Virus record (IMG/VR): IMGVR_UViG_3300023184_000549
Span: 1-22,731 of that record
Source: a virus
Length of the DNA stretch: 22,731 nucleotides
Strand: one strand, 5' to 3'
Shown: positions 4,575-22,674 of the stretch, one piece after another
Layout: each line of letters starts with the position of its first letter
Position numbering within the stretch: position 1 is the first letter of the stretch
Position numbers and translations under genes: made by a program
Notes under the pieces: model-generated
Told to the model about the DNA's origin: nothing
The model's input: the letters and a program-made list of their open reading frames with translations, nothing else
Databases searched by the model: none

Positions 4575-4585
4575 GATATTATACC
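4575..4585 (-). promoter_or_regulatory. Recurring GGTRTAATATC element before the capsid gene
   Basis: Minus-strand GGTATAATATC followed by TAACGAACACACC, 74 bases before the capsid ATG. It contains a consensus -10 box (TATAAT). The upstream sequence has AGTTGTC, also found before the 6230 and 15524 copies, but not at a standard -35 distance. One of seven similar elements in the window, all oriented with the following gene. Confidence 0.55.
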
Positions 4586-4639
4586 TAACGACCAAGACAA
4601 CTTGAGTGTCTAGTTTACCCCCTCCCGAGCCAAGGAAGG

Positions 4640-4660
4640 GCTTCCAGATAGGAAGCTTTT
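4640..4660 (+). terminator. Possible plus-strand intrinsic terminator
   Basis: GCTTCC (4640-4645), loop AGATA, GGAAGC (4651-4656), then TTTT. It reads as a weak intrinsic terminator for plus-strand transcripts, opposite to the genes here. On the minus strand no T-run follows the stem, so it would not stop transcription of the capsid operon. The short stem makes this a weak call. Confidence 0.3.
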
Positions 4661-4759
4661 AGCTCTTAAAAATTGAACCGGAAGTTTTAGCGGATACCGA
4701 GCCGCAAGAAGACATTTACACACAGTAAATAATATGTCAAATACTTTTCTAGTAATTAT

Positions 4760-5926
4760 CTATCCGCCCGAAAATCTGGCTTCAAGGGCCTCCAAGAATC
4801 CCAAACCTTCGGATACGCTGGCAGGTTTTGTTTCAGACCCTGAGCCTGCTCCTGGGGTGGCAGACTGGTAGCGTTTAAGGGATGATTTGAGTTCTGAGAT
4901 TTCAGCTTGTAGAGACTTGTTATGCTTGAGGAGGTGGGGGACTAGCGAACCAGAAAAAGCCGAAAATGCCTTATGTTCATCCGATAGGGAATCGAATGAA
5001 AGCCCATCCATTTCCGATAATAGCGAAGCCTCAAATTTAGCCTTCTCGGAATCATCGGAAGGGAAGGGGACGCTATCTTTCAACTTATTCCACACCGTAT
5101 TAGTAGCTTTAGACCAAGACGCCTTAGCTTGACTTTTGCGCTTAGACTCCTCTTCTTTTTGGGCTTTTTCACGGGCGTCCAAGGCAAGAGCAGCCTTATC
5201 ACGCATTTTCTCGCGGTGGTCCAAAAGTTGAGAGAAATCGTCCCCAAGTTGGTATAAGCTTACCCTGTCGCGCTCGCTGAAGTTAGAGGCTAGCTCTACA
5301 ATCAAGTCTCCCTGTTTATCGGGGTCCCCCTCTTCAAGAGCACCTAAAAGTGCTTTTTCGGGAACCGAATACTTTTCAGCCATGCGACTAACCACGTTTA
5401 AAATAGCGGCCATGGGTTTAACAATGCTCTCTCGGTACTCATCAGTGGCCTCAAAACGAGAGATAGCCAATTCTTTTTCGTAATTAGCGATTTTTGCCTC
5501 ACGTTCTTCAATGGACGTTTTAAGTTTAGAAACTTCTTCATGGTCTACTTTTGGAGAAGATTCTGCGATAGCCAACTTCTCTTCGAGTTCGGCTACCCTA
5601 GCTTTAGCTGCCTTAGCCTCTGCTTTGATCTCTTTGAATTTAGCTCCCGCAGAAACCGACATGTTTTTAACGTTATCTGCATCTTCTGCAACTGTCTCTT
5701 CAGGTTTATCTGTTGCAGCGTCCTTTGCTGGGGCTTCAACCTTAGCCTCATCGCTGGAGTCAGAAGGGGAATCCGTAGAGGCATCCGCTTCTAGGGCTTT
5801 GTCCAAAGCTTCAAACCAGCTACTCCCAGATTCAGAAGTGCTCTGGGTTGGTTGGTCTTGGCCTGTGCTTGTTTCAGTTGCTTGGTTTTCTGCCGAAGCA
5901 GATTCTGTTTGTTGGGTTTCTAACAT
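4760..5926 (-). CDS. Capsid scaffolding protein
   Basis: A 388-residue protein from the ATG at 5926 (MLETQQTESASAENQ). A longer frame to 5962 would use TTG and overlap the preceding gene. The N-terminal third is acidic and rich in S, T, E and A. Residues about 90-170 form a strong predicted coiled coil (KFKEIKAEAKAAKARVAELE and on), and a second charged helical stretch lies near residues 240-280 (REKMRDKAALALDAREKAQK). The C-terminus has LQAEISELKSSLKRYQ and ends LGFLEALEARFSGG. This architecture, together with a position between portal and capsid genes, fits the internal scaffold that guides procapsid assembly. No protease motif is seen, so it is probably removed without a maturation protease encoded here. 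Confidence 0.75.
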   Translation of the reverse strand: MLETQQTESASAENQATETSTGQDQPTQSTSESGSSWFEALDKALEADASTDSPSDSSDEAKVEAPAKDAATDKPEETVAEDADNVKNMSVSAGAKFKEIKAEAKAAKARVAELEEKLAIAESSPKVDHEEVSKLKTSIEEREAKIANYEKELAISRFEATDEYRESIVKPMAAILNVVSRMAEKYSVPEKALLGALEEGDPDKQGDLIVELASNFSERDRVSLYQLGDDFSQLLDHREKMRDKAALALDAREKAQKEEESKRKSQAKASWSKATNTVWNKLKDSVPFPSDDSEKAKFEASLLSEMDGLSFDSLSDEHKAFSAFSGSLVPHLLKHNKSLQAEISELKSSLKRYQSATPGAGSGSETKPASVSEGLGFLEALEARFSGG

Positions 5927-5934
5927 AAAGTCTA

Positions 5935-6219
5935 TTATTTTGGCCTCATAGTGTGCTCCCAAGGAGCAGGGGTTTCAGTTAGCTTGTTGGGCTCTTTGGT
6001 AAGGGATTTTAAATTTCTAAGGAACCTAAAGTATCCTTCTCTTGAGCAACCGCTTAAAGCCGCTTGGTGGAGTAAATCGGAGTTCCCAGCGAATGTTTGT
6101 GGTGAGTCAGTCTCAATGGACAAACACACCTCAAGAGCTTGTTTGAGGGGTTCCGCGTTTAGTAAGTCGGATAGCTTAACTCTTAAGTCTTCCCGCCTGT
6201 CCCATTCGATTTTTGTCAT
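5935..6219 (-). CDS. Small conserved-position phage protein between portal and scaffold
   Basis: A 94-residue protein (MTKIEWDRREDLRVKLSDLL at its start). The middle has LKQALEVCLSIE and then DLLHQAALSGCSREGYFRFL followed by RNLKSLTKE, suggesting a compact helical protein. No domain is recognised. It begins 14 bases after the portal stop and ends 8 bases before the scaffold ATG, so the three are probably made together. A promoter-like element (6230-6240) overlaps the portal stop codon just upstream. The position suggests a head-assembly role; beyond that nothing can be said. Confidence 0.6.
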   Translation of the reverse strand: MTKIEWDRREDLRVKLSDLLNAEPLKQALEVCLSIETDSPQTFAGNSDLLHQAALSGCSREGYFRFLRNLKSLTKEPNKLTETPAPWEHTMRPK

Positions 6220-6229
6220 TTGTTACTTT

Positions 6230-6240
6230 GATATTACACC
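6230..6240 (-). promoter_or_regulatory. Recurring GGTRTAATATC element overlapping the portal stop codon
   Basis: Minus-strand AGGTGTAATATCAAAGTAACAAATG: the TAA of TGTAAT is the portal stop codon, and the next gene's ATG (6219) follows 10 bases after the element. AGTTGTCA lies just upstream, as at 4575 and 15505. If it is a promoter, the transcript would have almost no leader. Confidence 0.45.
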
Positions 6241-8501
6241 TGATATGACAACTTAGCAGCGTTTTCGGAATCTTTCAAAGCCATTTTTTGGTTGGCCTCC
6301 ATCATGCGCAAATTCATCTTTAGCTCTGACTGCTGTTTAAGCATGTCCATTTTAACCTGGTGTTCAGCCAAGCGTTGTCTAAGTCGTACATCCATGTCCG
6401 CATCGCCAGCTACATTAGGCTGAGCATCTCCAGCTTGTTGAGGCCCTTGTTCGGCCTGCTGTCGGCGCAACTTTTCAACATGCTTTGCCCCATTAGTTAC
6501 AACTTCCGTTATCTGGGATAATATCTTACGGTTTGCAGCGGCTTCGTCACGAGTGACTGGGTCGCCAGACATTTGCTCAACGTGCTGTGTTGTGTGCTCC
6601 AACATAGTCATTAACCCTGGGAGCACCGTTGGGAGGTCGGCACCGCTCTCGTTAATAGCGCTAACCCCTTGGGAAAGGGCTCCTATATGTACACGCGAAT
6701 GGACAGAATGGTTATCGTTAGGAAAAGTAGGAAGCGCAACGCCCTCTTTAAGAGAGCTGTTCTCAAGGTTAGCGAACTTCTCATCGAGCGATGGGCGGGC
6801 TTCTGCGGATGGTTTTTGCACATATCGGTCGGCGTTGTCATACCCGATTCTAGCGGCAACTCGATCACGTAACAGGTTCTGCCTGCCAAAATCATCGAAC
6901 GCAGGAGCAATCTGCGAGAACTCATCAAACGTTAGCTGCCGCATCTGTTCGCTGCCTGCCCCTATTGCGCGAACGATAGTGACTCTCGCAATATCTACCG
7001 CGTAAATAGCTTCCAATGGAACTCCTCGCTCGAAGCACCTTTTTCGGAACTCTCTTACCTCGTTCCCACCTGGGTCATCTGGGAGATACCCACGTCTACA
7101 TACACGGCGAACTACCTCTCTGAACAAGCGTTCGAGTGGGTCGTAAAAAAGAGAAAGGGCCGAAGTGCTTAGCCGTGCTCTATCGGACTGCTGGGCCTTA
7201 ACCTCATATTTAGTCTTCTCACGGGAGTCAACTTCGGCAGCTTGTGCTTGGTACCCAGCTGTTCGGTTTGAAATCAACCGCGACATATCACTCAGCACTG
7301 GGATAACTGAAGTTGATGCGTTTGGTATGGTACGATCTTGTATCTCTACTCCAGGGGATAAAATAGTGTAGGGCCCAAAGTAAGTGAGTTGAAGATTCTG
7401 AAGAGCCTCTTCATTCGTAGGCTGAAGTATAACAGAAGAGCTAAGGAGCGCCCCGTCAACCATCTGGCAGCGAAGCCTGTTGCTAGTCTGAATCTCCGTA
7501 AAAATCTTTGCTCCAAGCCCACGAATACTGTGGTAGTGGCCATTTACTCCCACACCGTAAGTAAACACCGTAAACGCCTGTTCCATGCTTGGGAACTTAC
7601 CAACCTTCCTGTACAAGAACCCATCGACATTGGGGGTGTCGCTCTCCATAATAATGCAATGGGTCACCCTTCCGTCGAACTCAACATTCCAAATATGGAC
7701 TAGCTTAATTTCCGAAGATGTGGCAGTGCCGATATATAAATCGTTAGACTTCATCTCCCTAACAATCCCCTCCCAGTCGGTTGAATGTAGCCCAGAGCCA
7801 GAAGAGCTAGTTACAGCGTTTTGTATAGCACGTTTCACTACCTCTACATTCCACCCAACTTCAGTAGCGCTTTCAGGGTCTTCGATAAACCTGTAAAGTT
7901 GTTGGGCCTGCATTACTCGTGAGCAGCAAGCTACCTCGATTTCGGATTCGGAAGCCAAAGTCCTGCGAGGGATTAGGAACTCGCCAAGACCTCCAACCCG
8001 CCAGCGCCAATCGAGGTCACACTCAAAATACGTGATTCCGACCCCATGTGCTACAAAGTGGGTTGCGAGCCTCAACCAATTAGGTGTGTAGGGGTTCCAA
8101 CCACGCAACATGCGAGTTAGTTCAGCGGAAATAATACCCTCGTATTCAAGACGTTCTTGGCGTTCTCCAAATTTTGTTTTGAAGTTTACAAGAGTCTCAA
8201 CGCTAGATAATAAGTCAACGTACCCAGATAGGGCTGCTTCAAGTAAAGCATCGGCTTCGCCAAAATTGACGTTCGCTCTTGCTCCCTGTCCAGTAGCCCT
8301 TAATTCAGCATCGTCGTAGGGAGGTGCCCCAGCAAACATTTCATCAATCGCGGCTCGGTTTCTAGCACTAGACTCATCCGCCTTACGTAGCTTGGAATAA
8401 ATTTCACGAGCACTATTGGCATCTTTGATCCTTGTTCGGGGAGCGGCCCCCTTTTCGGAAAGGTTCTCAAGCAGTAGGTCGTTTGGTTGATCGCTGGGCA
8501 T
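6234..8501 (-). CDS. Portal protein
   Basis: A 755-residue protein, a size typical of the large portals of podovirus-like phages. It lies directly downstream of the terminase gene, as usual. The N-terminal region (residues about 25-60, ANSAREIYSKLRKADESSAR and DEMFAGAPPYDD) and the region around 130-160 (MLRGWNPYTPNWLRLATHFV) are characteristic of large portal proteins. The C-terminal 120 residues are rich in Q, K, M and E (QVKMDMLKQQSELKMNLRMM) and probably form a long helical barrel or coiled coil inside the head. The product should form the dodecameric DNA channel at one capsid vertex and dock the terminase. The start ATG at 8501 has no Shine-Dalgarno sequence and follows a promoter with a good TTGACA. 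Confidence 0.85.
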   Translation of the reverse strand: MPSDQPNDLLLENLSEKGAAPRTRIKDANSAREIYSKLRKADESSARNRAAIDEMFAGAPPYDDAELRATGQGARANVNFGEADALLEAALSGYVDLLSSVETLVNFKTKFGERQERLEYEGIISAELTRMLRGWNPYTPNWLRLATHFVAHGVGITYFECDLDWRWRVGGLGEFLIPRRTLASESEIEVACCSRVMQAQQLYRFIEDPESATEVGWNVEVVKRAIQNAVTSSSGSGLHSTDWEGIVREMKSNDLYIGTATSSEIKLVHIWNVEFDGRVTHCIIMESDTPNVDGFLYRKVGKFPSMEQAFTVFTYGVGVNGHYHSIRGLGAKIFTEIQTSNRLRCQMVDGALLSSSVILQPTNEEALQNLQLTYFGPYTILSPGVEIQDRTIPNASTSVIPVLSDMSRLISNRTAGYQAQAAEVDSREKTKYEVKAQQSDRARLSTSALSLFYDPLERLFREVVRRVCRRGYLPDDPGGNEVREFRKRCFERGVPLEAIYAVDIARVTIVRAIGAGSEQMRQLTFDEFSQIAPAFDDFGRQNLLRDRVAARIGYDNADRYVQKPSAEARPSLDEKFANLENSSLKEGVALPTFPNDNHSVHSRVHIGALSQGVSAINESGADLPTVLPGLMTMLEHTTQHVEQMSGDPVTRDEAAANRKILSQITEVVTNGAKHVEKLRRQQAEQGPQQAGDAQPNVAGDADMDVRLRQRLAEHQVKMDMLKQQSELKMNLRMMEANQKMALKDSENAAKLSYQV

Positions 8502-8516
8502 GGGTATGTTAGCCAG

Positions 8517-8547
8517 ATATTATTAAATGGTCGCAAGATATTGTCAA
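8517..8547 (-). promoter_or_regulatory. Portal promoter with TTGACA and AATAAT/TAATAA
   Basis: On the minus strand TTGACA (8542-8547) is followed by a 17-base spacer and AATAAT (8519-8524), or a 16-base spacer and TAATAA. The downstream sequence, TATCTGGCTAACATACCCATG, aligns with the leaders of the GGTRTAATATC elements. This is the best sigma-70-like promoter in the window. The leader to the portal ATG would be about 10 bases. Confidence 0.55.
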
Positions 8548-8563
8548 ACGATGATTTCAAAAG

Positions 8564-10399
8564 TTACATGCGAGTTATGAACCTAGGAGTGTTTACGTGG
8601 TTTAACCTGCGCATTAAAGTGCTGAATGGGATTCCAGGGGAGTCGGACATAGACAGCTCTATAGACCTATCTGCGCCAAAACCAAATTTAACTCGGCATA
8701 GAGCTACAAGCATTAAAGCTGCGTCGGCTTCATCGGGAGATTTACCAATACGCATTTTCATATCGGGTTTGGGTTCTGCCTTCAGCCTCATCGAAGACCC
8801 TTTTTGTGTCTCGTACGTTCTGGCGCATAGTTCTCGTGCGAGGGAAGGGGAGATACCCTTTATTTGACCTGTGCGCATAAGCTCTTTTGCTCCGAACCAA
8901 ATTTCAGACACCCGATTGTAGTACCGCTCGTTGCTAGGGGTGGGGTCCGAAACACTAGCTGGGAGAGTACTAGCCGCCCCAGCGAAATCTATACGATTGA
9001 CCCGTGGGGACCACTCCCGAGCTACGACATCTCCGAAGGGCTTGCCTGCGCCTGATGCGTCAAAAGCCGCGTTCTCTGGAGGTACCCCCCTGCAAACACA
9101 TAGTTCTCGAAACTGGCGAGAAATTTGGAAAGCGCGAGGGGTTCCGACATCCGTGACATCTTCGGTTAGGAACTCTACGGAATCGAAGCACAGTGTCTTC
9201 ACTCCATTTATGTTCTCCCCAAATGACCCAAAATATAAAGCAGAACGATCACCCCCGTTTGTGAAAGCGGGGTCAAGAGCTGCAACTTTTATCGGGGGCT
9301 TAAGCCACACGGCAGGCTGGTCAGCTTGAAACTTGATGATGTCCGCTTCGGAGTAGATTCCATCAGCCATTCCAGTCGGAGACCAAAACCCGCGAACCAT
9401 TCGCCAATACGCATTGGAATTTTCTCCCAAGGATTCGCGTTGCTGGGCTAGAAAATCGGAAGTGATAAGCCACGGGTAGATAGTTTTTCCTGCCGTAACA
9501 TTGGGGCTCTTCTCGCCGTCGAGGCGCAAACATTTTCCACGTTCCGTTTCCCAAGACTGCGACTCGCTGTTAATCGAAGACCACCCCGCTTTAGGTTTTG
9601 AGAAAACACCAAAAGCATCGTAGTAGCTAGCTGGGTTGCCTAGCCCCACCATTTGAAACCATGGATTGATGGCGAGGTTAGAGTAAGCGGCACCGACCAC
9701 AGATTCTCCAAGCTCTGGCAACTCGTCAGCGATGAGCAAAACTCGCGGAGCTTTAAAACCGATGAGCTTTCCGTAAGCTTCTTTGTCTTTGCTTTTCTCT
9801 GCCGCGATAAGAGATATGCCGCTACGATCAGAGCCAGTGGTATCCTTGCTCCCCATGTCGTAGCGAATGAGCCCAACGGAATCGACAAGCTTGCCAGGGG
9901 CTCGTCCAGGGATCGCCTGCCAGTAATCGCGGATCGCTCCCCAAATACGTTTACGCGAATCTTTCAGTGAGGTGGAGGTGACTAGCACCATCGTTTTGCT
10001 TGGCAAGCATAAAAAATTTACTATTGCCCATAGCGCTCCGAAATCGGACTTGCCCGTGGAAGCCGCTCCAGCAATGGAAAGGAAGCTTTTTGGTTGCGAC
10101 ATCATTTCACAGGCTTCCTCTAACATTGCTTCTGCCCAAGGGTGCCAAACAAATTTTTTTCGTTTATTTTGAGGACCCCAAAGAATGCCTGAGATAGCTT
10201 TGAAATGCTCAGCTCTGCCCAGAGAGCCAGGTATTTCCTCGGTTCCAAGGCGGAAGCATTTCAAGTGCCGCATCAGCGCGTTGTCCGTTTTCGGCCACCA
10301 CGCACCATATTCGTAGTCCAAGTTTGGGGGGCCTGCGGGGACTTGTTGAGCTGTTTCAGGTGAAGGTTGTGGGTTTTGTTGGGCGCTTTGTTGTGTCAT
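8564..10399 (-). CDS. terL: Terminase large subunit (packaging ATPase-nuclease)
   Basis: A 611-residue protein from the ATG at 10399; an upstream TTG at 10420 is possible but less likely. The ATPase domain has a Walker A-type loop GAASTGKS at about 111-118, Walker B LLIADE at about 221-226, and the coupling region GLGNPAS at about 252-258. The nuclease domain has ALDPAF with its first metal-binding Asp at about 376, AAFDASGAG as the second acidic motif, and DEADAALML near the C-terminus as the third. It should pump DNA into the procapsid through the portal and cut the concatemer. The first gene of the leftward late block; the att region lies just upstream. No small terminase subunit is visible here. 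Confidence 0.9.
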   Translation of the reverse strand: MTQQSAQQNPQPSPETAQQVPAGPPNLDYEYGAWWPKTDNALMRHLKCFRLGTEEIPGSLGRAEHFKAISGILWGPQNKRKKFVWHPWAEAMLEEACEMMSQPKSFLSIAGAASTGKSDFGALWAIVNFLCLPSKTMVLVTSTSLKDSRKRIWGAIRDYWQAIPGRAPGKLVDSVGLIRYDMGSKDTTGSDRSGISLIAAEKSKDKEAYGKLIGFKAPRVLLIADELPELGESVVGAAYSNLAINPWFQMVGLGNPASYYDAFGVFSKPKAGWSSINSESQSWETERGKCLRLDGEKSPNVTAGKTIYPWLITSDFLAQQRESLGENSNAYWRMVRGFWSPTGMADGIYSEADIIKFQADQPAVWLKPPIKVAALDPAFTNGGDRSALYFGSFGENINGVKTLCFDSVEFLTEDVTDVGTPRAFQISRQFRELCVCRGVPPENAAFDASGAGKPFGDVVAREWSPRVNRIDFAGAASTLPASVSDPTPSNERYYNRVSEIWFGAKELMRTGQIKGISPSLARELCARTYETQKGSSMRLKAEPKPDMKMRIGKSPDEADAALMLVALCRVKFGFGADRSIELSMSDSPGIPFSTLMRRLNHVNTPRFITRM

Positions 10400-10415
10400 T
10401 TTAGTGGGAAAATCT

Positions 10416-10436
10416 GTCAATAGAACGTCAATAGAA
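10416..10436 (+). repeat. Tandem GTCAATAGAA boxes left of att
   Basis: GTCAATAGAA at 10416-10425 and again at 10427-10436, spaced 11 bases, about one helical turn. The longer word TCTGTCAATAG recurs on the other side of the tRNA fragment at 10631-10641. Candidate arm-type sites for the integrase or sites for the excisionase. Confidence 0.45.
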
Positions 10437-10454
10437 AGTTCTGTACGTAGGTAA

Positions 10455-10483
10455 GGTTGTGGGTTCGACCCCCGCCGGGTGCA
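10455..10483 (+). other. Attachment site (attP): 3' end of a tRNA gene
   Basis: The sequence contains an intact T-arm: stem GTGGG (10459-10463), loop TTCGACC (10464-10470), stem CCCGC (10471-10475), with one G-U pair. It is followed by a 7-base acceptor 3' strand CGGGTGC (10476-10482) and discriminator A (10483). GGTT before it fits the end of a variable loop. No D-arm, anticodon arm or 5' acceptor strand (expected GCACCCG) is present, so this is not a complete tRNA. Such a fragment directly before an integrase gene is the classical phage att core: integration would rebuild the 3' end of the host tRNA gene. Identity of the tRNA is uncertain. Confidence 0.75.
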
Positions 10484-10630
10484 GTTTTTTTGTGCCCAAA
10501 AATCTGGAATCTAACTGTAGTAATACCAAGTACATCAAGAAAATAGGTGAGAAATGGGGTGAATATCTGGGGATGCTGCGATATTATCCGCGAAACAATT
10601 TACTTTATTTTTGAACATTTTTTGTCTATT

Positions 10631-10641
10631 TCTGTCAATAG
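10631..10641 (+). repeat. TCTGTCAATAG box right of att
   Basis: An 11-base copy of the word found left of the tRNA fragment (TCTGTCAATAG at 10413-10423 allowing one shift at the first base). It lies about 150 bases to the right of the att core and 75 bases before the integrase ATG, so repeats flank the core on both sides. Confidence 0.4.
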
Positions 10642-10714
10642 TAACACAGACAATTCAGGCCGAAAGTGGAAAGTTCAAAAACACCAACTCACGCCAGAAA
10701 CAAAAAAAATCAAA

Positions 10715-11959
10715 ATGCCGAAGCCAAAACAGAAAAAAATTTCAGACTATCCAAAGCGGTTTTCTAACCGCTACGGGAAGGTTGCAATTTATAAAAACGC
10801 GAACAATGCGGATTGGTTTATTTTTGTTGTGGCGTGGTCTGTTGGGAAACATCGGTACCGTAAAACATTCTCCGATGAAGTGGCGGCAGTTAACCACGCA
10901 GAACTTTTACTCGAACAATTTGAGAAGGGGCAGGCTCTAGCTGGCGCTATGACGCATAACGATGCTCTGTGCTTCAATGCGTGTGCAGAAAAACTAAACG
11001 GCGTTCCTATTATGGATGCTGTGGAATTCTACGTGCGAATGAATGGAGGGGGTTCCAAAGAAGAAACAAAAATAGTTGTTGACGTGGTTCCTGATTTCTT
11101 GAGTCACCAAGAAAAACAGGGCAACTCTGATAGAGACCTAAAGACCCTGAAGAGCCATTTAAAAGGCTTCAGCGATGCTTTGTGTGTTCCGCTAACTAAA
11201 ATCACAACTCAAAATATCAACGAGTACATACAAGCGAAACGGGAACTGAAACCTGGAGTTTTTGCGGAATGGGCAAACAAGTCCAAAAATAATGTTCGGA
11301 TAACGCTTCACAGATTTTTTGAGTGGGCTAAAGATAACAACAGACTCCCCAAAAATTGGGAGAACCCCGTGACTGCGTCTACTACATACAAAGTAGTGCA
11401 TTCCTCACCAGGGATCTTCACTCCAGATGATTTAAAAAAGATGCTCCCCCATGTGTCCAATAAGTGGCTCCCTTATTTTGCTATCTCCGCTTTTGCTGGT
11501 GTGCGTAACGCTGAAATACAGCGATTGACTTGGGACGAAGTTGATATGGAAGGTCGGCACATATTTCTGGACCCCCGCCATACCAAAACAAAACGTAGGC
11601 GCGTTGCGATTATGGAAGATTGCCTTGCGGAGTGGCTTAAAAAGTACACTGGAGAGCGTAAAGGATTTTTATGCCCCGAAAAAATATCACGGACTGGGAC
11701 TCATCACAGAGAAGACGCACCTAAGGTAGCGGACCCAAATAAAGAGACTTCAGCAGTGGCTAAAAAGGCAGGGGTTAAGTGGGTCCACAATGGACTTAGG
11801 CACTCATATATTTCGTACCAAATGGCTATTTGGAGGGATGACCAAAAAGTAGCCGAGCAGTGCGGGAACTCTCCGCAAGAAGTGCAGGAGAGTTATAAAG
11901 CAAACACAACTGAAAAGGAGGCTAAACGTTGGTTTTCAATATTGCCTAAAAGGTTTTAG
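10715..11959 (+). CDS. int: Tyrosine-recombinase integrase
   Basis: A 414-residue protein from the ATG at 10715 (MPKPKQKKISDYPKRF); a GTG at 10547 would add 56 unlikely residues. The N-terminal 100 residues are an arm-binding-like domain (YGKVAIYK..HRYRKTF). The core-binding domain spans about 120-230. The catalytic domain has R264 (GVRNAEI), K291 in HTKTKRRR, NGLRH with R362, CGNSP and nucleophile Y394 (ESYKA). Asn359 and Asn385 stand where most family members have His or His/Trp. I recall this Asn pattern from Verrucomicrobia and Planctomycetes integrases. It should recombine attP (10455-10483) with a host tRNA gene. Confidence 0.9.
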   Translation: MPKPKQKKISDYPKRFSNRYGKVAIYKNANNADWFIFVVAWSVGKHRYRKTFSDEVAAVNHAELLLEQFEKGQALAGAMTHNDALCFNACAEKLNGVPIMDAVEFYVRMNGGGSKEETKIVVDVVPDFLSHQEKQGNSDRDLKTLKSHLKGFSDALCVPLTKITTQNINEYIQAKRELKPGVFAEWANKSKNNVRITLHRFFEWAKDNNRLPKNWENPVTASTTYKVVHSSPGIFTPDDLKKMLPHVSNKWLPYFAISAFAGVRNAEIQRLTWDEVDMEGRHIFLDPRHTKTKRRRVAIMEDCLAEWLKKYTGERKGFLCPEKISRTGTHHREDAPKVADPNKETSAVAKKAGVKWVHNGLRHSYISYQMAIWRDDQKVAEQCGNSPQEVQESYKANTTEKEAKRWFSILPKRF

Positions 11960-12037: not shown

Positions 12038-12253
12038 ATGGCAAATCAAATGGCAGACGGTCGTAAGCGTACAGTCTACATAGTAGACAAAGAAGACTAC
12101 AATGAACTCGAAGCTTACGCTAAAAAAATGGGGTTCACCACATCGGTACTACTCAGAGAGGCAACTTTCAGGTTAGCTGAAGAACTCCGAAATACAGGAA
12201 AGACGCAACTCGTGCGGCAACCAAAAGATAACGAAGGTCGACGAAACGAATAG
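12038..12253 (+). CDS. Ribbon-helix-helix DNA-binding protein (first copy)
   Basis: A 71-residue protein from the ATG at 12038 (context AAATATATGG). Another ATG at 11987 would add 17 residues that do not fit the fold. RKRTVYIVDKEDYNELEAYA, then KKMGFTTSVLLREATFRLAE, fits a ribbon-helix-helix fold: one beta strand (TVYIV) and two helices separated by the GFT turn. The tail is charged and probably flexible. Such proteins bind DNA as dimers and often act as small phage or plasmid repressors. Between integrase and excisionase it may regulate the lysogeny region. The target is unknown. Confidence 0.65.
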   Translation: MANQMADGRKRTVYIVDKEDYNELEAYAKKMGFTTSVLLREATFRLAEELRNTGKTQLVRQPKDNEGRRNE

Positions 12254-12301: not shown

Positions 12302-12327
12302 TTCTTTGCTTTCAGGGTATAATATCC
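12302..12327 (+). promoter_or_regulatory. Recurring promoter-like element before the second RHH gene
   Basis: The core GGGTATAATATCC (12315-12327) contains a perfect TATAAT. The 13 bases before it (TTCTTTGCTTTCA) align without gaps to those before the copy at 12870 (TTCATTGGTTAAG), giving a shared 26-base pattern. The leader to the ATG at 12394 is about 65 bases and contains a weaker GGTAATATC repeat at 12351-12359. No -35 consensus is seen at the standard distance. It probably starts the regulatory transcript of the RHH and excisionase genes. Confidence 0.55.
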
Positions 12328-12393
12328 AAAAGCAATAGAACAAACCCTCCGGTAATATCATCAGATATAAAAACGCAGACATCCTCATTTAAT

Positions 12394-12558
12394 ATGGGTC
12401 AGAAAAAAATACAACTTAGCCTTACAAAAACAGAACAGCAAAAATTACACAAAGTCTGCGACGAGCTTGGCATCGACAAGAGTTTCTTAGTGTCCCAAGC
12501 ACTAAGAAAACTTCTTGCTGAGTTAAAGCAAAACGGAAAGGGGGAGTGCGTATGCTAA
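12394..12558 (+). CDS. Ribbon-helix-helix DNA-binding protein (second, short copy)
   Basis: A 54-residue protein, MGQKKIQLSLTKTEQQKLHK then VCDELGIDKSFLVSQALRKL and a short tail ending GECVC. It has one beta strand (KIQLSLT), helix A (EQQKLHKVCDELG) and helix B (DKSFLVSQALRKLLAELK), the minimal RHH fold. It resembles the first RHH protein in layout but is not a close copy. The start context TTTAATATGG is A/T-rich with no Shine-Dalgarno sequence. Its stop TAA (12556-12558) overlaps the excisionase ATG (12552) by 7 bases, so the two are probably translated together. A repressor or antirepressor role is inferred. Confidence 0.7.
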   Translation: MGQKKIQLSLTKTEQQKLHKVCDELGIDKSFLVSQALRKLLAELKQNGKGECVC

Positions 12559-12893
12559 ATAGCACTCCCAAGTTAATAGTAGAGTGTGCGGGGTCGTTCA
12601 AAGTCAACGTTAAGCCTGGAGGCCGCGTGGAAATTGAGATGGAGCAAGTCTCAGGGGTCAACAGCGACTCGGATACTCTATACGATAAAGCTGGAGTAGC
12701 TAAACGTCTTGGTACGTGTGCTAGGTCAATTGAAAACTGGATGACTCAAAAAAAGCATCCTCTGCCATACATCAAAAATTGTGGGCACCCTAAATTTAGG
12801 GAGTCCGATATTATTTGGTGGTTGGATCAAGGTTGCTCTGTGGCAGCACGAAGGGCTTCATTGGTTAAGGGGTGTAATATCCTAACAACATGA
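12552..12893 (+). CDS. xis: Excisionase-like helix-turn-helix protein
   Basis: A 113-residue protein from the ATG at 12552. Residues about 42-92 (TLYDKAGVAKRLGTCARSIE, then NWMTQKKHPLPYIKNCGHPK and FRESDIIWWLDQG) are the winged helix-turn-helix of the MerR/excisionase class: a 'helper' helix, the recognition helix around RSIENWM, and a wing ending KFRESDIIWWL. The first 40 residues look like a separate beta segment (KLIVECAGSFKVNVKPGGRV) of unknown role. Location near the integrase fits an Xis-type directionality factor, although a transcription regulator is equally possible. Its TGA overlaps the resolvase ATG (ATGA at 12890-12893), and a promoter-like element lies within its last codons. Confidence 0.65.
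   Translation: MLNSTPKLIVECAGSFKVNVKPGGRVEIEMEQVSGVNSDSDTLYDKAGVAKRLGTCARSIENWMTQKKHPLPYIKNCGHPKFRESDIIWWLDQGCSVAARRASLVKGCNILTT
12857..12882 (+). promoter_or_regulatory. Recurring promoter-like element inside the end of the excisionase gene
   Basis: The core GGGTGTAATATCC (12870-12882) is followed by TAACAACATG, whose ATG is the resolvase start. It shares a 26-base ungapped pattern with the element at 12302-12327. The TGTAAT box ends 11 bases before the ATG, so the transcript would be nearly leaderless. It lies within coding sequence of the upstream gene. Confidence 0.5.
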
Positions 12894-14012: not shown

Positions 14013-14212
14013 GTTTACGTAGCGAACAATACGTGGCCTTGAAAAGAACGCACAGTTTCCTGCGAGACTTGATGTTTTCAGACACTAGGCCTAAAACAGT
14101 GCAGGAATTAAAAGATCGCGCTTATAGGTGCCTACGTCACTTCCCGTTCTTAGATGAACACGGGAAGCCAAAGTTCTCCCAAGATGACTTTGGGCCTGAC
14201 AAACTTAAATGA
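14009..14212 (+). CDS. Small conserved phage protein of unknown function
   Basis: A 67-residue protein, MSLRSEQYVALKRTHSFLRD then LMFSDTRPKTVQELKDRAYR and CLRHFPFLDEHGKP. It resembles short phage proteins with the pattern LKRTxxFLxDLxxxxxRPKxxxELRxRAxxCLRHxP, usually near replication or early genes. Mostly helical and basic. It is joined by ATGA overlaps to the genes on both sides (14009-14012 and 14209-14212), so it is made together with the helicase-nuclease. Function unknown. Confidence 0.6.
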   Translation: MSLRSEQYVALKRTHSFLRDLMFSDTRPKTVQELKDRAYRCLRHFPFLDEHGKPKFSQDDFGPDKLK

Positions 14213-16692
14213 AGACGCCTTACCCTGTCCAGGCAGCCCATATAAATAAGTTACTTAATTCACTTACACAATATCGTTGCGCATTAGACACATCAGCTAC
14301 AGGAACTGGAAAGACCTTATGCGCGGTGCTGGTGGCCAAGCTTCTAAAAGCACGAATAGTAGTAGTATGCCCCAAGGCAGTCATGCCAGCATGGGCAAGG
14401 GAGCTGCAGGACCAGGGGGTAGTAAGTCACTCCCTTATAAACTATGAGAAATTAAGGGCTGGAAAGTCCGGCATGGGTAAGTGGGACGGTAAGCGTTGGG
14501 TTTGGGAGCTGCCTGAAAATTCTATTATAATCTGGGATGAGGTACATAGGTGTAAATCGCCTACCGCTAAAAACACAAAGATGTTGATTGCGGCAAAGCC
14601 CTATTTTAATTTAATGTTGTCTGCAACTGTAGCGGACTCTCCAACGGAATTAAGAGGGGTGGGCTACATACTGGGGTTATTTGAGCTTCAAAAGTACTGG
14701 GGATGGTGCAGGTCTCATGGGTGCAAACCTAACCCTTGGGGAGCTATGGAGTTTGACAGGAGGAACACAAAATCACTTCAAAAGATACACTCAGACATAG
14801 TTCCAGCAAAAGGGAGCAGGATGTCGGTTGCAGATATGGAGGGCCACTTTGCGGAAAACTTCATCATAGATGAGCCGCTAGACTTCTCCGATAACGGAAG
14901 CATTCAAGCTCTGTACGCCGACATGGAGGACGAACTTGAGCAGCTAAAGACGCAAATGCAGGATGACTCTACCAACCCAGCTGCCGCTGCGCTAGTTGCT
15001 CAGCTACGAGCTAGGCAGGCTGTGGAGCTTTATAAAGTCCCTCTAATTGTGCAAATGGCTTCCGAGATAACCGTCGATCTTGGCCAAAGTGTGGCCATTT
15101 TTGTAAACTTCGATGCTACAATCGATGCTTTACTGGAGCGCATGTGTAGGACCCAAGGAACAGTGTCCGTAATCAGAGGTGGGCAAACTGAGACCGACAG
15201 ACAGAATAATATCGATAGGTTTCAAAGTAATGAGGTTACTACTATAATTTGCAACATAGAGGCTGGTGGGGTTGGGATTTCGTTGCACGATACAACAGGG
15301 GATCGTCAAAGGACTGCTCTAATAAGCCCAAATTTTAATGCAAAATCTTTAGTGCAAGTTTTGGGAAGAATTCATAGGGCTGGGGGCAAAAGCCCAGCAG
15401 TTCAAAGAATACTTGTTGCGGAAGGGACTGTAGAGGAAAAGGTTGCAAAGTCGGTAAAAGAGAAAATAAAGTCTCAAGATATTTTGAACGGATCGGAAAA
15501 TCAGTTGTCAAATGTGTCAACTGGGGTATATTATCCAGCTAACAACACAGAAACATCGCCAAAAATGCAAGAGAAGTCAGAAACTATTGACCATTCATCG
15601 AGGGCTCACGCAGAACATAGCCCATCAGCGCTTAAAATGTTTGAGATCTGCCCAGGGTACCTACCACGGGAAGGCTCTAGTCCTGCAGCAGATAAAGGAA
15701 CTCGAATTCACGAAGCCCTAGAAGTAGGGGATATTACTCTTCTGCATGATGAGGAGGAGCAAGCCATTGCGTATAAGTGTCTGGATTACGTTCAACATAT
15801 CATAAATAGTAAGCATGTTGAGCATGTTGAGCATGTTGAGCATAAAGAGATCAAATTTGATATACACTTAGGGGGTGGGGAGTCCACGTTTGGGACTTGT
15901 GACGTGTGCTTAGAGTTCAAGAATAACTTTGTCGTTTTAGTAGACTACAAGACTGGATACGGGGCAGTAGAGGATGCGGAAATTAATACTCAAGCATGGG
16001 CCTATTCTATCGGTGCTTTTCAAAAGTTCCCAAACGCCGAGCAAGTGGAGTTCTATTTCCTGCTACCAGTGAGGGACGAGGTAAGTGTCGCTACTTTCAA
16101 AAGAGCACAGTTGCCTGAGATGAAGTTGAGACTGCAAACAATCATTAAACGGGCTAAGGATAAGAAGATATTCAACCCAACTCCAGGGGTATGTGACTAC
16201 TGCGGCAACCAAGCAAAGTGCCCAGCACTGGCTAGCAAGGCGCTGCTAATTGCAAACAAGTATGCGGACGAGGGGTTTGAAGTGCCTGAAGATGTGTCTG
16301 GCGAAAACTGTTCTCCAGAGAGCCTAGCGGCTCTTCTCAAGATCGCCCCCATTATGGAGGCATGGGCCGAAGGAATCAAAAAGTTGGCGCTATCCAAGTC
16401 ACTTGAGGAGGGTTGGGAGTTGCCAGGATACCGCTTGCAGGAGCGTAAAACTCCTAGGGCAATAACGTCAGCACTACAAGCCTACAACGCTGTAAAGGAC
16501 ACAGTATCCATCATAGATTTTTTGGCATCGTGCTCCAAGGTGAGCATGCCTGACCTAGAAAAGAATTTTGCTGAAGCAATCCCAAGAGGGAAAAAAGGCC
16601 AAGCAAAACAAGAACTAGCGGACCGTCTTACGGACGCTGGGTGCTTGAAGCAAGAGGGCGTAATACACGTCCTAAAACAAGAAAAAAAGTAA
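14209..16692 (+). CDS. SNF2/DEAD-type helicase fused to a RecB/Cas4-like nuclease
   Basis: An 827-residue fusion. Residues 1-425 are a superfamily 2 helicase: Walker A SATGTGKT (29-36), motif Ia VVVCPKAVMPAW (51-62), motif II DEVH (110-113), motif III SAT (138-140), and motif VI QVLGRIHRAG (383-392). Residues about 460-680 are a PD-(D/E)XK nuclease: GTRIHEALE (497-505), GTCD with D565, and DYKTG with D579 and K581. Cys481 and the cluster C662, C665, C671 would hold a 4Fe-4S centre as in AddB and Cas4. Phages often encode these activities as separate neighbouring genes (the nuclease as DUF2800). The product probably resects or unwinds DNA during replication or recombination. A promoter-like element lies in the linker (15505-15536). 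Confidence 0.8.
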   Translation: MKTPYPVQAAHINKLLNSLTQYRCALDTSATGTGKTLCAVLVAKLLKARIVVVCPKAVMPAWARELQDQGVVSHSLINYEKLRAGKSGMGKWDGKRWVWELPENSIIIWDEVHRCKSPTAKNTKMLIAAKPYFNLMLSATVADSPTELRGVGYILGLFELQKYWGWCRSHGCKPNPWGAMEFDRRNTKSLQKIHSDIVPAKGSRMSVADMEGHFAENFIIDEPLDFSDNGSIQALYADMEDELEQLKTQMQDDSTNPAAAALVAQLRARQAVELYKVPLIVQMASEITVDLGQSVAIFVNFDATIDALLERMCRTQGTVSVIRGGQTETDRQNNIDRFQSNEVTTIICNIEAGGVGISLHDTTGDRQRTALISPNFNAKSLVQVLGRIHRAGGKSPAVQRILVAEGTVEEKVAKSVKEKIKSQDILNGSENQLSNVSTGVYYPANNTETSPKMQEKSETIDHSSRAHAEHSPSALKMFEICPGYLPREGSSPAADKGTRIHEALEVGDITLLHDEEEQAIAYKCLDYVQHIINSKHVEHVEHVEHKEIKFDIHLGGGESTFGTCDVCLEFKNNFVVLVDYKTGYGAVEDAEINTQAWAYSIGAFQKFPNAEQVEFYFLLPVRDEVSVATFKRAQLPEMKLRLQTIIKRAKDKKIFNPTPGVCDYCGNQAKCPALASKALLIANKYADEGFEVPEDVSGENCSPESLAALLKIAPIMEAWAEGIKKLALSKSLEEGWELPGYRLQERKTPRAITSALQAYNAVKDTVSIIDFLASCSKVSMPDLEKNFAEAIPRGKKGQAKQELADRLTDAGCLKQEGVIHVLKQEKK
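15505..15536 (+). promoter_or_regulatory. Promoter-like element inside the gene, at the helicase-nuclease linker
   Basis: TTGTCA (15505-15510), a 16-base spacer and TATATT (15527-15532) within the core GGGTATATTATCC (15524-15536). The sequence 15524-15557 aligns ungapped with 20478-20511, before the primase gene, at 26 of 34 positions, including AACAACACAGA at the same distance. An in-frame ATG (Met453) is at 15565, in the A-rich context CCAAAAATG. It could drive production of the nuclease domain alone (residues 453-827). Confidence 0.5.
15814..15840 (+). repeat. Three tandem CATGTTGAG units in the nuclease coding region
   Basis: Three exact 9-base units (15814-15822, 15823-15831, 15832-15840) encode three HVE repeats in KHVEHVEHVEHKE (residues about 535-547), followed by a decayed CATAAAGAG. 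The reading frame is kept whatever the copy number. It lies in the nuclease domain shortly before the GTCD motif. Confidence 0.85.
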
Positions 16693-16713
16693 ACGCATAT
16701 ACAATAATATAAC

Positions 16714-17487: not shown

Positions 17488-17494
17488 TACCCAG

Positions 17495-17567: not shown

Positions 17568-17579
17568 TCCCTAAATAAT

Positions 17580-17831
17580 ATGAATTTACCAGGATTAGAA
17601 CTACCAGTGATTAGTGAAGCGCGGGATATTTCCGCTCTTAGAGGAATTGCGGCTCGGGCTTGTGATATTTTGGCTGCAAGTAAAAATGAATCGTCTGATG
17701 GGGTTTGGGAAAATGCAATGAGTTCAAATCACTCAAAAACTATGTTCTCAACACCTGAAGAGACTGCTTTTTGGAAGAGCTTCGTTAATCTTCACGTAGC
17801 TGAGCTGGAAGCATTAGAGGGCCTAAGATAA
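17580..17831 (+). CDS. Small phage protein of unknown function
   Basis: An 83-residue protein from the ATG at 17580 (context CCCTAAATAATATG). A longer frame from a TTG at 17508 would run through the folded element and is rejected. MNLPGLELPVISEARDISAL is followed by helical segments with a run of A, R and L, then STPEETAFWKSFVNLHVAEL. It is acidic overall. It sits between the folded element and the nucleotide kinase, 5 bases from the latter, so it is probably in the same transcript. Not recognised. Confidence 0.55.
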   Translation: MNLPGLELPVISEARDISALRGIAARACDILAASKNESSDGVWENAMSSNHSKTMFSTPEETAFWKSFVNLHVAELEALEGLR

Positions 17832-17836
17832 ATAGT

Positions 17837-18382: not shown

Positions 18383-18386
18383 ATTT

Positions 18387-18479
18387 TCCGAAGCGGTGAG
18401 TAGAGCGCATAGAGATCATGCGACAAGGGAGTTTTGCTAAGTTGGCATTTGGCCCCTCTGTTGATCACGCCGCTTCGGA
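18387..18479 (+). ncRNA. Branched folded intergenic element upstream of DNA polymerase
   Basis: CCGAAGCGG (18388-18396) pairs with CCGCTTCGG (18470-18478). With T18387-A18479, a U-G pair and a G-C pair inside, the closing stem has 12 bp. Inside, CGCAT (18406-18410) and ATGCG (18418-18422) form a 5-bp stem with a 7-base loop. A second arm may use AGGG (18426-18429) with CCCT (18454-18457). The 92-base element fills almost all of the 113 bases between the kinase and polymerase genes. No T-run follows. It could be a structured RNA, a leader controlling the polymerase, or a replication origin dyad. Confidence 0.5.
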
Positions 18480-18495
18480 CTATTAACTCAGAAAA

Positions 18496-20241: not shown

Positions 20242-20450
20242 CCATCGAACAATACGCAACTACGTACGCAATCATTGAATCGGGAGCTATCCACTCGTCC
20301 ATGAATACGTTCTTTAAATGGGCTAAAGAGGACAAAGAGAGCCCAATAGCTAAGGCTATAGAGGCTGGGGACACAGAAGAAAAGGTGTGGGAGACTTACT
20401 TAAATGCCTACACCGATGCTCAAAAGATCATAGCAAAATTTGAAAGTTAA
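20238..20450 (+). CDS. Small acidic phage protein of unknown function
   Basis: A 70-residue protein whose ATG overlaps the polymerase TGA (20238-20241), so it is probably translated by coupling. MTIEQYATTYAIIESGAIHS, then SMNTFFKWAKEDKESPIAKA and helices ending AYTDAQKIIAKFES, suggests a small helical protein. It may be a polymerase accessory factor, but only the position supports this. No family is recognised. Confidence 0.6.
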   Translation: MTIEQYATTYAIIESGAIHSSMNTFFKWAKEDKESPIAKAIEAGDTEEKVWETYLNAYTDAQKIIAKFES

Positions 20451-20452
20451 TA

Positions 20453-20479
20453 CCGACCAAATGCCCTAAGGGCTGTCGG
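20453..20479 (+). other. Nested dyad before the primase promoter-like element
   Basis: CCGAC (20453-20457) and GTCGG (20475-20479) enclose GCCCTAAGGGC (20463-20473). The last bases overlap the GGGTGTAATATC element. It could be an operator, a weak terminator for the polymerase transcript, or both. There is no T-run after it. Confidence 0.35.
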
Positions 20480-20490
20480 GTGTAATATCT
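20478..20490 (+). promoter_or_regulatory. Recurring promoter-like element before the primase-helicase gene
   Basis: GGGTGTAATATCT, followed by AACAACACAGACACATG at 20495-20511, where the ATG (20509) is the primase-helicase start. The TGTAAT box ends 22 bases before the ATG. No -35 consensus is seen; a dyad (20453-20479) overlaps its left side. Confidence 0.55.
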
Positions 20491-20508
20491 ACAGAACAAC
20501 ACAGACAC

Positions 20509-22674
20509 ATGCCACAGAAAGCCATAAAATACACAGCCATACCAAACCTAAGGAGCAGTGATGCAACGACCCTACAGGGAAAGCCTTGGGATGCCCAGAT
20601 ACCCAGTCGCCCAGGATTAAAGTCGGGTGCGACCAAAGAAGACTACCGAGCATGGTGCGCGGACGCTACTACAGAGTGGTGCTTCTACACCTTCGCGGAA
20701 GGGCTTACTCCATCTATGAGGGTGGGGGAGACTAACCCAGTTAAATTTCAACACGGCATCATAGCGGACTATGACGCTGTTATAAGTATACCTGATGCCA
20801 AGAAACTGATTGCGAATAACTGCGCTGCAGGGTTGGAGCCTACCGCTATTTCTAGCACCTTCAGCGGGGGAATACGGCTTGTTTGGGAGTTTGAGGAGCC
20901 TTTGATGCTGGACAACAAAGCGATATACGAATCGTTTATGGCATACGCAGCTAAAGAGCTTAAACTTACTAAGCTGCTACCGCATTTCGATCAAACCTCG
21001 CTTAAGAGCAGCCAAGTCTTCGAGATCGGTAATAACTGGGAGAAAATCACCCCATCTTCCCCAATCGTAGTAGATGTATGTTACTACTGGCTAGCGGAGT
21101 CAGCACTAAAGGCAAAGAAGATAGTCTCTGACGTAGCTACAATCCCTTACGAGAAAATAGCTGCTGAACTGGAAAAACAGTTCCCAAATAGGATCACCGG
21201 AAAAATCGAGGAAGGCGTCCGAGTTCCGCTATTCTGGATAGACGATGGGATTGACCGAATCGGCGCTGTACTAGGCGAACACGGGGTTATCTGCTTCTCA
21301 GATAGAGCTGGCAAGTCATTCGTGCCTTGGGTCGAGATCTTCGGTAAGAAGTTCGTTCAGGACTTTGAAGCGGAGCGTACAGGTGCCGCTGCAGCAGACT
21401 TCTGGTTCGACGGGAAGAGCTATTGGACGAAGGAAGGGGTTCTGTGGTGCAGGATACTAACAGAAGAAATGACCCGCCGTATGAGGGTTCTCTACAAGCT
21501 TTCAAGCAAGAACGGCAACAAGGACACAGCCTCGGAGATCGACAAGGCGTTAGTAGCCATACAGCAGACCAAACGAGTGCAGAACGTAGCCCCGTTCATC
21601 TACAAGCCAGAGGAGATCATTGACTACAACGGGCTGAAGTACCTGAACACAAATCACCGCAAGATGATGGAGCCTGCAGACGTGGATGGGGATTTCCCTT
21701 GGTTGAAGGAGTTCCTAGTTAGCCCAGGAATTTGGGACAAGGCCAAGGACGAAAACGGAGTCAAGCAAACGGAATACTTCTTAGCTTGGCTAAAGAGGTT
21801 CTGGGAGTCCGGCAGAGCGGGTCGGCTTCTTTCTGGTCAAATGGTGTTTATTGCTGGGGACGCAGGGCAGGGGAAAACGCTGTTATCTTCGTTTATCCTC
21901 GGCCAGATCGCAGGGGGTCACTCAGACGCTGGTGGGTATCTTCTCGGTGGCGGGGACTTCAACAAAGAATTGGTAGAGGTAGGCGTGTGGAGTGTTGACG
22001 ATGGTTCTGCCACAATAGACGGCACCAGCCGCAAGACCTTCTCGAATAACGTTAAAAAGGTGGTCGCTCAAACGGAAATCCTATACCACCCCAAGTTCCA
22101 AGACGCATCGAAACTACCGTGGCAGGGTAGGGTGGTAGTCACCTGCAACACGGATGACGAGTCCCTGTCAATAGTACCGACAACGGACAACTCAATTACT
22201 GACAAGCTGATGCTGTTTAGACTCGGAGAATGGAGCCCAAGCTTCCCACCTAACAACATACTAGAGGCTAAGATTAGAGGAGAACTGCCCTACTTCCTCC
22301 GTTGGCTATCGAACTGGACTCCCCCAAAGTCGATCATGGCAGCGCCAGGGCAAAATAGATACGGGGTTAAGTCCTACCACCACCCAGAAATTCTTAAACA
22401 CAGTCAAAATCTATCTGCTGCTACCCATCTTATGACGGACGTAGATGAGCTACGTAACATGCCAGAGTCTCCCATGTTCAATGGAGACAAGGTAGCATGG
22501 GAGGGTACTGCTGGAGGTCTATTGCGACTGGGCAAAGATTTCTTCGCAACTCGGGCTAGCACAGCTCAAACGGGCGTTTGGTTGTCCCAGATACACAGGA
22601 GCAAGTCTGCCCCGTGGCTGAGTCGCAGGGAAGGACGTGCAAGGCAGACGCTTTGGAGGATTACAGCACCGTGA
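20509..22674 (+). CDS. Primase-helicase (AEP-like primase plus SF3/D5-type helicase)
   Basis: A 721-residue protein. The N-terminal half resembles archaeo-eukaryotic primases: IADYDA with D87 and D89, FSGGIRLVW (118-126) at the second motif, and FDQTS with D161. The usual His in the second motif is replaced by Arg. The C-terminal half is a superfamily 3 helicase of the D5/DUF5906 type: Walker A GDAGQGKT (450-457), Walker B VWSVDDGSA, and the sensor segment VVVTCNTDDE. It should unwind DNA at the phage replication fork and lay primers for the polymerase. It is monocistronic after a promoter-like element. The ATG context is CAGACACATG without Shine-Dalgarno. The helicase call is firm; primase activity is inferred. 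Confidence 0.85.
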   Translation: MPQKAIKYTAIPNLRSSDATTLQGKPWDAQIPSRPGLKSGATKEDYRAWCADATTEWCFYTFAEGLTPSMRVGETNPVKFQHGIIADYDAVISIPDAKKLIANNCAAGLEPTAISSTFSGGIRLVWEFEEPLMLDNKAIYESFMAYAAKELKLTKLLPHFDQTSLKSSQVFEIGNNWEKITPSSPIVVDVCYYWLAESALKAKKIVSDVATIPYEKIAAELEKQFPNRITGKIEEGVRVPLFWIDDGIDRIGAVLGEHGVICFSDRAGKSFVPWVEIFGKKFVQDFEAERTGAAAADFWFDGKSYWTKEGVLWCRILTEEMTRRMRVLYKLSSKNGNKDTASEIDKALVAIQQTKRVQNVAPFIYKPEEIIDYNGLKYLNTNHRKMMEPADVDGDFPWLKEFLVSPGIWDKAKDENGVKQTEYFLAWLKRFWESGRAGRLLSGQMVFIAGDAGQGKTLLSSFILGQIAGGHSDAGGYLLGGGDFNKELVEVGVWSVDDGSATIDGTSRKTFSNNVKKVVAQTEILYHPKFQDASKLPWQGRVVVTCNTDDESLSIVPTTDNSITDKLMLFRLGEWSPSFPPNNILEAKIRGELPYFLRWLSNWTPPKSIMAAPGQNRYGVKSYHHPEILKHSQNLSAATHLMTDVDELRNMPESPMFNGDKVAWEGTAGGLLRLGKDFFATRASTAQTGVWLSQIHRSKSAPWLSRREGRARQTLWRITAP

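Follow-up and report, generated by a model that had tools for sequence, protein, structure and literature searches.

A candidate genome-wide operator set for a ribbon-helix-helix regulator in a probably temperate Verrucomicrobiota phage

IMG/VR virus record IMGVR_UViG_3300023184_000549 is a phage fragment of 22.7 kb, analysed here over its entire length (22,731 nucleotides; the window), and it carries on both strands a short repeated element with the core GGTRTAATATC. What reads this element, and to what end? A preliminary description took it to be a family of promoters with AACAA-rich leaders. We favour, with confidence somewhat above an even balance, a different explanation: the repeats would form a genome-wide operator set of a phage-encoded Arc/CopG-like regulator, most likely the small ribbon-helix-helix protein RHH1, which would probably act as a repressor in a temperate phage of Verrucomicrobiota.

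An oriented element before replication and structural genes

Five exact copies of GGTRTAATATC lie in the window, at 4575-4585 and 6230-6240 on the minus strand and at 12316-12326, 12871-12881 and 20479-20489 on the plus strand, and a sixth copy with one mismatch lies at 15525-15535 (plus strand). The reversed pattern, used as a control, has no match in the window, so the repeated, oriented family noticed in the preliminary description is real; its minus-strand positions were correct and its plus-strand coordinates one base low. All six copies are oriented with the following gene, as had been stated. The accompanying claim that most lie 8-30 bases from a start codon holds for four of them (8, 10, 19 and 29 nt) and fails for those before the RHH2 and major capsid protein (MCP) genes (67 and 73 nt). 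A longer form, GGTRTAATATCNNAACAACA, has four matches in the window at up to three mismatches against 0.03 expected, while plain k-mer over-representation in the window did not bring the motif out.

Relatives from IMG/VR fall into two groups. Group A comprises the window phage, G004, G001, G002, G003 and near copies of G002 (98% and about 80% identity), and group B is a sister group, G010-G015, at 50-60% identity. Alignment of 31 group A sites gives the consensus [GA]GGTRTAATATC[CT]nA[GA]nRACA, a fixed 20-bp element of constant spacing. Ahead of it no column is conserved, a -35 box included, in agreement with the earlier statement that a general -35 box is missing. The downstream part is conserved as described (A17 in 28, C18 in 26 and A19 in 30 of the 31 sites), and the same sites precede the same genes in the group A relatives. 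The AACAA-rich leader belongs to the family only in part, since A/C-rich leaders also occur in G013, a group B phage without the motif.

A matrix built from these sites finds 38 sites at or above 13 bits in the window, G001, G002 and G003, against 0-1 for column-shuffled matrices. Because the matrix was trained on 31 of the 38, the seed sites score high by construction, and independent support comes from the seven extra sites and from conservation in the relatives. The preliminary description had proposed such a scan as the way to expose a motif lying inside genes and in random orientation as often as before genes; the outcome left the family standing, as a genome-wide, non-coding signal common to replication and structural genes. 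Two conserved sites lie within open reading frames (ORFs), both under constraint at the DNA level. A pattern scan of IMG/VR with GGTRTAATATCNNAGTRACATG returned only G001 and G003. The family also loses one proposed member: the related form before the portal gene (8517) stays under 9 bits when scored with the 21-column matrix, and by eye it is a plain promoter of the form TTGACA-N17-AATAAT. Another core with one mismatch, at 6515 (plus strand) and antisense within the portal gene, likewise failed the full matrix.

The six sites of the window, with matrix scores, are as follows.
4566..4585, minus strand: GGTATAATATCTAACGAACA before the MCP gene (start 4501); exact core, 26.4 bits; kept in G004 and G001
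6221..6240, minus strand: site over the 3' end of the portal gene, 10 nt before a gene of 94 aa (start 6219); exact core, 29.2 bits; kept in G001, G002 and G004
12316..12335, plus strand: site between RHH1 and RHH2, 67 nt before RHH2; exact core, 24.3 bits
12871..12890, plus strand: site over the 3' end of the helix-turn-helix (HTH) gene, ending at the start codon of a RuvC-like resolvase gene; exact core, 27.8 bits; kept in G001, G002 and G003, each at a distance of 8 nt
15525..15544, plus strand: site in a helicase-nuclease ORF, at the domain junction; 24.2 bits; kept in G001, G002 and G003
20479..20498, plus strand: site before the primase-helicase gene (start 20509); exact core, 24.9 bits; kept in G001 and G002

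The minus strand of the window carries tail, capsid, portal and terminase genes, and the plus strand encodes an integrase, RHH1, RHH2, the HTH protein, the RuvC-like resolvase, the helicase-nuclease, an SSB-like protein (a working label for a protein without a family match), a dNMP kinase, DNA polymerase A and the primase-helicase. An inverted repeat, CCGAC...GCCCTAAGGGC...GTCGG, occupies 20455-20478 immediately 5' of the primase site and could act as a terminator or as another control site.

Could the signal instead be a promoter type borrowed from the host? The phage attachment site (attP) of G002 (L041:8857-8888, equal to G002 48857-48888) is identical over at least 48 bases to the 3' half of a tRNA-Thr(TGT) in metagenome-assembled genomes of Chthoniobacterales/Verrucomicrobia, and because of this match the host order of G002 is likely Chthoniobacterales, of the Verrucomicrobiota; the attP of the window corresponds to a different tRNA end. 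Across 147 genomes of Chthoniobacterales the core is not enriched (69 matches against 61 for the reversed pattern, summed by hand), and the 20-bp form is found in none of 388 genomes of the phylum Verrucomicrobiota. The signal thus belongs to the phages, and these counts rule out a host promoter type.

A symmetric counterpart in the sister group

In G010, G011, G012, G014 and G015 the element before orthologous genes is a 13-bp dyad, GGTnT-N3-AnACC, which in G010, G014 and G015 is enriched at no spacing other than 3, and less clearly so in G011 and G012. Merging of palindromic double matches leaves 84 group B sites, 78 of which have an open start codon within 120 nt downstream.

Proximity to start codons, together with inverted arms around some sites (e.g., TGTCTGTTGG...CCAATAGACA in G001), would also suit an RNA element of the 5' leader, either a hairpin or a translation signal. 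In 67 sister sites, however, the variable arm positions are complementary no more often than by chance (24 observed against 26.8 expected, and 49 against 51.3), and half-sites that do not covary fit a dyad bound by a protein dimer better than an RNA stem. An RNA or N4-type hairpin promoter with a 5-bp stem and a 3-nt loop (GGTAT-CAT-ATACC) was rejected for the same lack of covariation. The distance to the start codon ranges from 8 to 113 nt, and from a site inside an ORF the next ATG can be as far away as about 110 nt; both count against a leader element. The flanking arms of group A do show higher complementarity within sites than between them (7.7 against 6.4; 0 of 20,000 permutations), an observation that favours the RNA element over an operator and that may partly reflect local composition. 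Overall, an RNA element seems very improbable.

The main rival of an operator is the promoter family of the preliminary description, in which the core itself (TRTAAT or TAATAT) serves as the -10 box without a -35 box, helped by an extended contact or a phage activator, and the transcript would begin some 7 nt further on, at the conserved purine that precedes ACA, so that leaders would be very short. The core does hold a near-consensus -10 with a centre that is strict in group A, and a TAATAT box suits T4 in 31, A5 in 28 and T9 in 29 of 31 sites. The fixed downstream RACA could be a start region, the orientation is fixed to the gene, and TTGTCA stands 16 nt ahead of the site in the helicase-nuclease ORF, its TTG codon being kept in 4 of 4 phages. 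The details of the boxes are less accommodating. In the TATAAT register, 16 of the 31 sites have A at position -11, 14 have G and one has T; the TAATAT register does have A at -11 in 28 of 31, yet neither register is preceded by TG, and the upstream GGGT (GGGTR in full) is not the TG-n of an extended -10, so that the proposed extended contact finds no support.

In the sister phages neither -10 register is conserved, while the GGT/ACC arms are. TTGAC ends 0-4 nt before the dyad at 15 of the 84 sites, and alignment on TTGAC places A at -11 of an N17-spaced -10 in 12 of the 15 (TTGAC-N17-CA), the highest value among 19 spacings. In this subset the matching -10 therefore lies downstream of the dyad, 17 nt beyond TTGAC, and the dyad sits in the promoter spacer, the classical position for a repressor. 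The sites also vanish where RHH1 is gone, while the TTGACA before the portal gene stays in one such phage, G013, and searches of these phages, that for PF00940 lacking a working positive control, found no family of RNA polymerase or sigma factor. We judge a promoter family to be unlikely on the whole, if a serious competitor.

The promoter of a phage single-subunit RNA polymerase, T7-like or N4-like, would suit a contiguous 20-bp motif with excess information, and G002 encodes a virion protein of 3105 aa that could be considered for such a role. PF00940 has no match in ten phage records, which are incomplete contigs and in which the positive control had no match either; the giant protein is without a Pfam or PDB match and instead matches a virion structural PHROG. 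We give this possibility almost no credence. As an observation in its own right, the 3105-aa protein (L039:9643-18960) contains HEALHH and HENLH metalloprotease-like motifs, and its virion structural PHROG match covers the C-terminal part only.

Compared with the dyad, group A sites keep the left arm GGTRT, have a degenerate right arm (ATCC, not AnACC) and strictly conserve the central TRTAAT. Given these unequal arms and the strict centre, the group A element may be promoter and operator in one.

A small ribbon-helix-helix protein as the candidate binder

Three small proteins encoded downstream of the integrase are candidates for the binder.
12038..12253, plus strand: RHH1, a 71-aa ribbon-helix-helix protein and the favoured candidate from its RHH_3 and PHROG matches, its predicted fold and its co-occurrence with the sites
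12394..12558, plus strand: RHH2, a 54-aa Arc-like protein (PHROG Arc-like repressor, E=1.1e-5)
12555..12893, plus strand: HTH protein, excisionase/regulator-like (PHROG, E=7.4e-6)

RHH1 matches a PHROG of transcriptional repressors (E=0.0086), and its closest sequence among solved structures is CopG (E=0.034). The predicted monomer (mean predicted local distance difference test score 70) has an N-terminal segment followed by two helices, the strand itself being absent from the model; its best folds are the PutA ribbon-helix-helix domain and Arc, and nearly all top folds are ribbon-helix-helix (probability 0.99, template modelling score to the target 0.81, E 0.22). The best conserved part of RHH1 across groups A and B is a basic N-terminal segment, MxNKxADxRRRxVxI. 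Ribbon-helix-helix proteins contact DNA through the N-terminal segment (PMC5569661).

The distribution of the sites points to the same protein. No contig with RHH1 has fewer than two sites, and each site-bearing phage encodes both RHH1 and the HTH protein as far as its sequence covers this region (the G004 contig ends before the HTH part). G013, the group B phage without either protein, has no site in 65.8 kb; there the TTGACA before the portal gene is kept and the dyad is gone. L087, which has the gene order of the window and an HTH protein 60% identical and lacks RHH1, has no site in 17.3 kb, and the distant L096/L099 have neither RHH1 nor sites. Presence of the sites with RHH1 and their absence from G013, L087 and L096/L099 indicate that RHH1 tracks the sites; motif and protein co-occur and co-diverge, with few independent losses. 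The HTH protein is an unlikely binder, since L087 keeps it and has no sites, and RHH2 is less likely than RHH1, since its sequence diverges among phages that share the same motif. Sites lie upstream of some RHH1 and RHH2 genes (before both in G001 and G002), as expected for autoregulation.

Two further observations concern this region. The more distant terminase relatives L087, L090, L096, L097 and L098 are without RHH1. In the regulator region behind the integrase (L062 5803-7283; ends of L074/L071) glycosyltransferase-like genes are found in G012 and G013 and methyltransferase-like ones in G013, and in G013 these genes occupy the place of RHH1 and the HTH gene.

We hypothesize that a dimer of RHH1, which is encoded next to the integrase, binds the repeated element as its operator, and that many operons have such a site at or adjoining their promoters; the predicted target duplex is GGTRTAATATCCAAGTGACA. 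Once bound, RHH1 would obstruct RNA polymerase at every site simultaneously and so keep replication and structural genes off in the lysogen, or time them after infection, and its removal would release the whole gene set. Binding by RHH1, repression rather than activation, and the positions of transcription starts are all deduced from sequence. The same sites and the same protein might instead serve activation, with RHH1 as an activator or dual regulator that raises phage expression after infection. The few -35 boxes of group A would agree with this, and activating ribbon-helix-helix proteins are known: AmrZ acts both ways (PMC3325190), and AvtR activates at low concentration (PMC5569661). The sites nevertheless occupy the start region or the spacer, positions at which a bound protein normally obstructs polymerase, and those within ORFs also fit blocking, so that an activating role strikes us as rather improbable.

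Several observations currently weigh against a repressor-bound operator set. First, the match of RHH1 to Pfam RHH_3 (E=0.0022, 18.3 bits) is a weak family match, below the curated cut-off of 21.6. Second, the link between RHH1 and the sites rests on few losses; only L087 separates RHH1 from the HTH protein, and L096/L099 are a single, more distant lineage. Third, no site stands directly before RHH1 in the window, G003 and G004. Fourth, the dyad of group A is imperfect, and a pure operator would not need its strict TRTAAT centre; an operator leaves both this centre and the downstream RACA unaccounted for, and no -35/-10 pair could be assigned to most group A sites. Finally, the sequence information per site is inflated by the picking of sites by their core. 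In favour of the operator, on the other hand, the sites carry about 24.5 bits each against about 13 bits needed to locate them in the genome, an excess that fits an operator overlaid on a second signal.

Upstream of RHH1 stand two features that bear on the lifestyle of the phage.
10450..10482, plus strand: probable attP, the 3' end of a tRNA gene in the terminase-integrase interval, read from the sequence
10715..11959, plus strand: tyrosine integrase (Pfam Phage_integrase, E=4.9e-11)

The integrase and the tRNA-derived attP indicate that the phage of the window is temperate. A search for proviruses with the MCP in genome contigs gave none, and no lysogen was found; among annotated phage records the MCP and terminase of the window have no relatives, and a peptide-pattern search for the helicase protein returned none. 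The words TATTGACAG/CTGTCAATA together have five copies in the window against 0.13 expected, some of which lie around attP, within 10390-10660 (CTGTCAATAG, CGTCAATAG), and these are likely integrase arm or regulator sites.

A site within a coding sequence and the place of the system among known regulators

One of the two sites within coding sequence involves a gene fusion.
14209..16692, plus strand: helicase-nuclease fusion ORF of 827 aa (Pfam and PHROG)
15565..16692, plus strand: proposed nested cistron of 375 aa, the nuclease part (DUF2800 / PD-(D/E)XK; PHROG exonuclease), whose ATG lies 29 nt past the core

The 15525 site falls in the poorly conserved linker between helicase and nuclease. 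At positions of identical residue, the codon is unchanged in all four phages (window, G001-G003) at 5 of 6 positions in the site, as against 64 of 469 elsewhere in the ORF, with a chance of about 3 in 10,000 by our own binomial estimate. An in-frame ATG follows 26-32 nt past the core in each of the four. Helicase and nuclease form one ORF in these phages and in G010, G015 and L087, and two genes, with a stop codon at the junction, in G011-G014. G010, G012, G014 and G015 have a scored dyad site at this junction, which in G012 and G014 lies between two separate genes; G011 and G013 show no clear one. This conservation and the split genes of the relatives suggest that the site likely marks the start of a nested nuclease cistron, having apparently been kept when the two genes became one ORF, or dating from before they did. 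The second internal site is one that the window lacks; in G001, G002 and G003 it falls within the N-terminal part of the SSB-like gene. The nuclease part also contains, at 15810-15845, an in-frame short tandem repeat, GAGCATGTT, which encodes EHVEHVEHVEH.

P22 Arc and plasmid CopG bind operator dyads between or on promoter elements, with one or two operators each. RHH1 is predicted to share their fold, and the dyads here take similar positions, whereas the present set is genome-wide and the two proteins have very little sequence identity with RHH1. Phage P1 C1 is one repressor with dispersed operators before many operons of one phage, as proposed here; its sites are 17 bp long and asymmetric, and the protein is unrelated to RHH1. 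To our knowledge, a dispersed operator set of this size with a ribbon-helix-helix protein has not been described for a tailed phage. The literature searched gave no earlier description of such a signal for Verrucomicrobiota phages, which is no proof of absence.

Further parallels are known. The stoperators of cluster A mycobacteriophages (L5 and relatives) are asymmetric 13-bp sites bound by the repressor as a two-domain monomer (PMC6550527, PMC9283540). Like them, the present sites are short and numerous over a temperate phage genome, have one predominant orientation, lie in part near genes of many functions, and drift along with the candidate regulator between relatives; unlike them, the sites of the sister group form a symmetric dyad, and a ribbon-helix-helix protein of 64-71 aa is the candidate binder. 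The repeated 15-bp element in SPbeta promoter regions was first found in silico and has since proved to be where the master repressor MrpR binds (PMC10516654), a parallel for a repeated phage element in promoter regions that ends at the protein, since MrpR has a tyrosine-recombinase fold and RHH1 does not. With the L5 and MrpR kind, the present system shares many motif copies in the phage and none enriched in the host, and sites that precede genes in fixed orientation. F55, SvtR and AvtR of archaeal viruses are small ribbon-helix-helix proteins that bind several viral promoters, often including their own; F55 maintains the lysogenic state from sites over the start and the B recognition element (BRE), and AvtR has eight potential sites (PMC5569661). 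RHH1 resembles them as a small ribbon-helix-helix protein proposed to regulate several viral promoters and differs in that they use archaeal transcription machinery and fewer sites, those of F55 being tandem repeats. The RHH1 operator set may thus work like the stoperators, SPbeta/MrpR and the archaeal-virus regulators, a likeness rather than membership. Elsewhere, in L017, a distant relative by its primase, the palindromic 9-mer GTTGCAACG/CGTTGCAAC is over-represented (8 copies against 0.2) and is possibly the operator of another phage.

A bolder version of this proposal is that one protein of 64-71 aa is the master switch of a whole lineage of tailed phages of 60-70 kb, acting through roughly 12-24 operators, some of them inside coding sequence and controlling nested genes, and that in some relatives the loss of the protein went with the loss of every operator and a rewiring of promoters. 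We regard this version as tentative and, in its full extent, somewhat doubtful.

If the favoured explanation is correct, one group of uncultured temperate phages that infect freshwater Verrucomicrobiota would gain its first regulatory code, with regulator and operators named, and immunity groups would become predictable from sequence alone. The relatives would form a natural series, with the regulator present, diverged or lost, in which operator gain and decay could be followed, and the helicase-nuclease ORF would be a gene fusion that retained in frame the control site of its former second gene. The control of a whole, so far unstudied, group of phages would thereby become directly testable.

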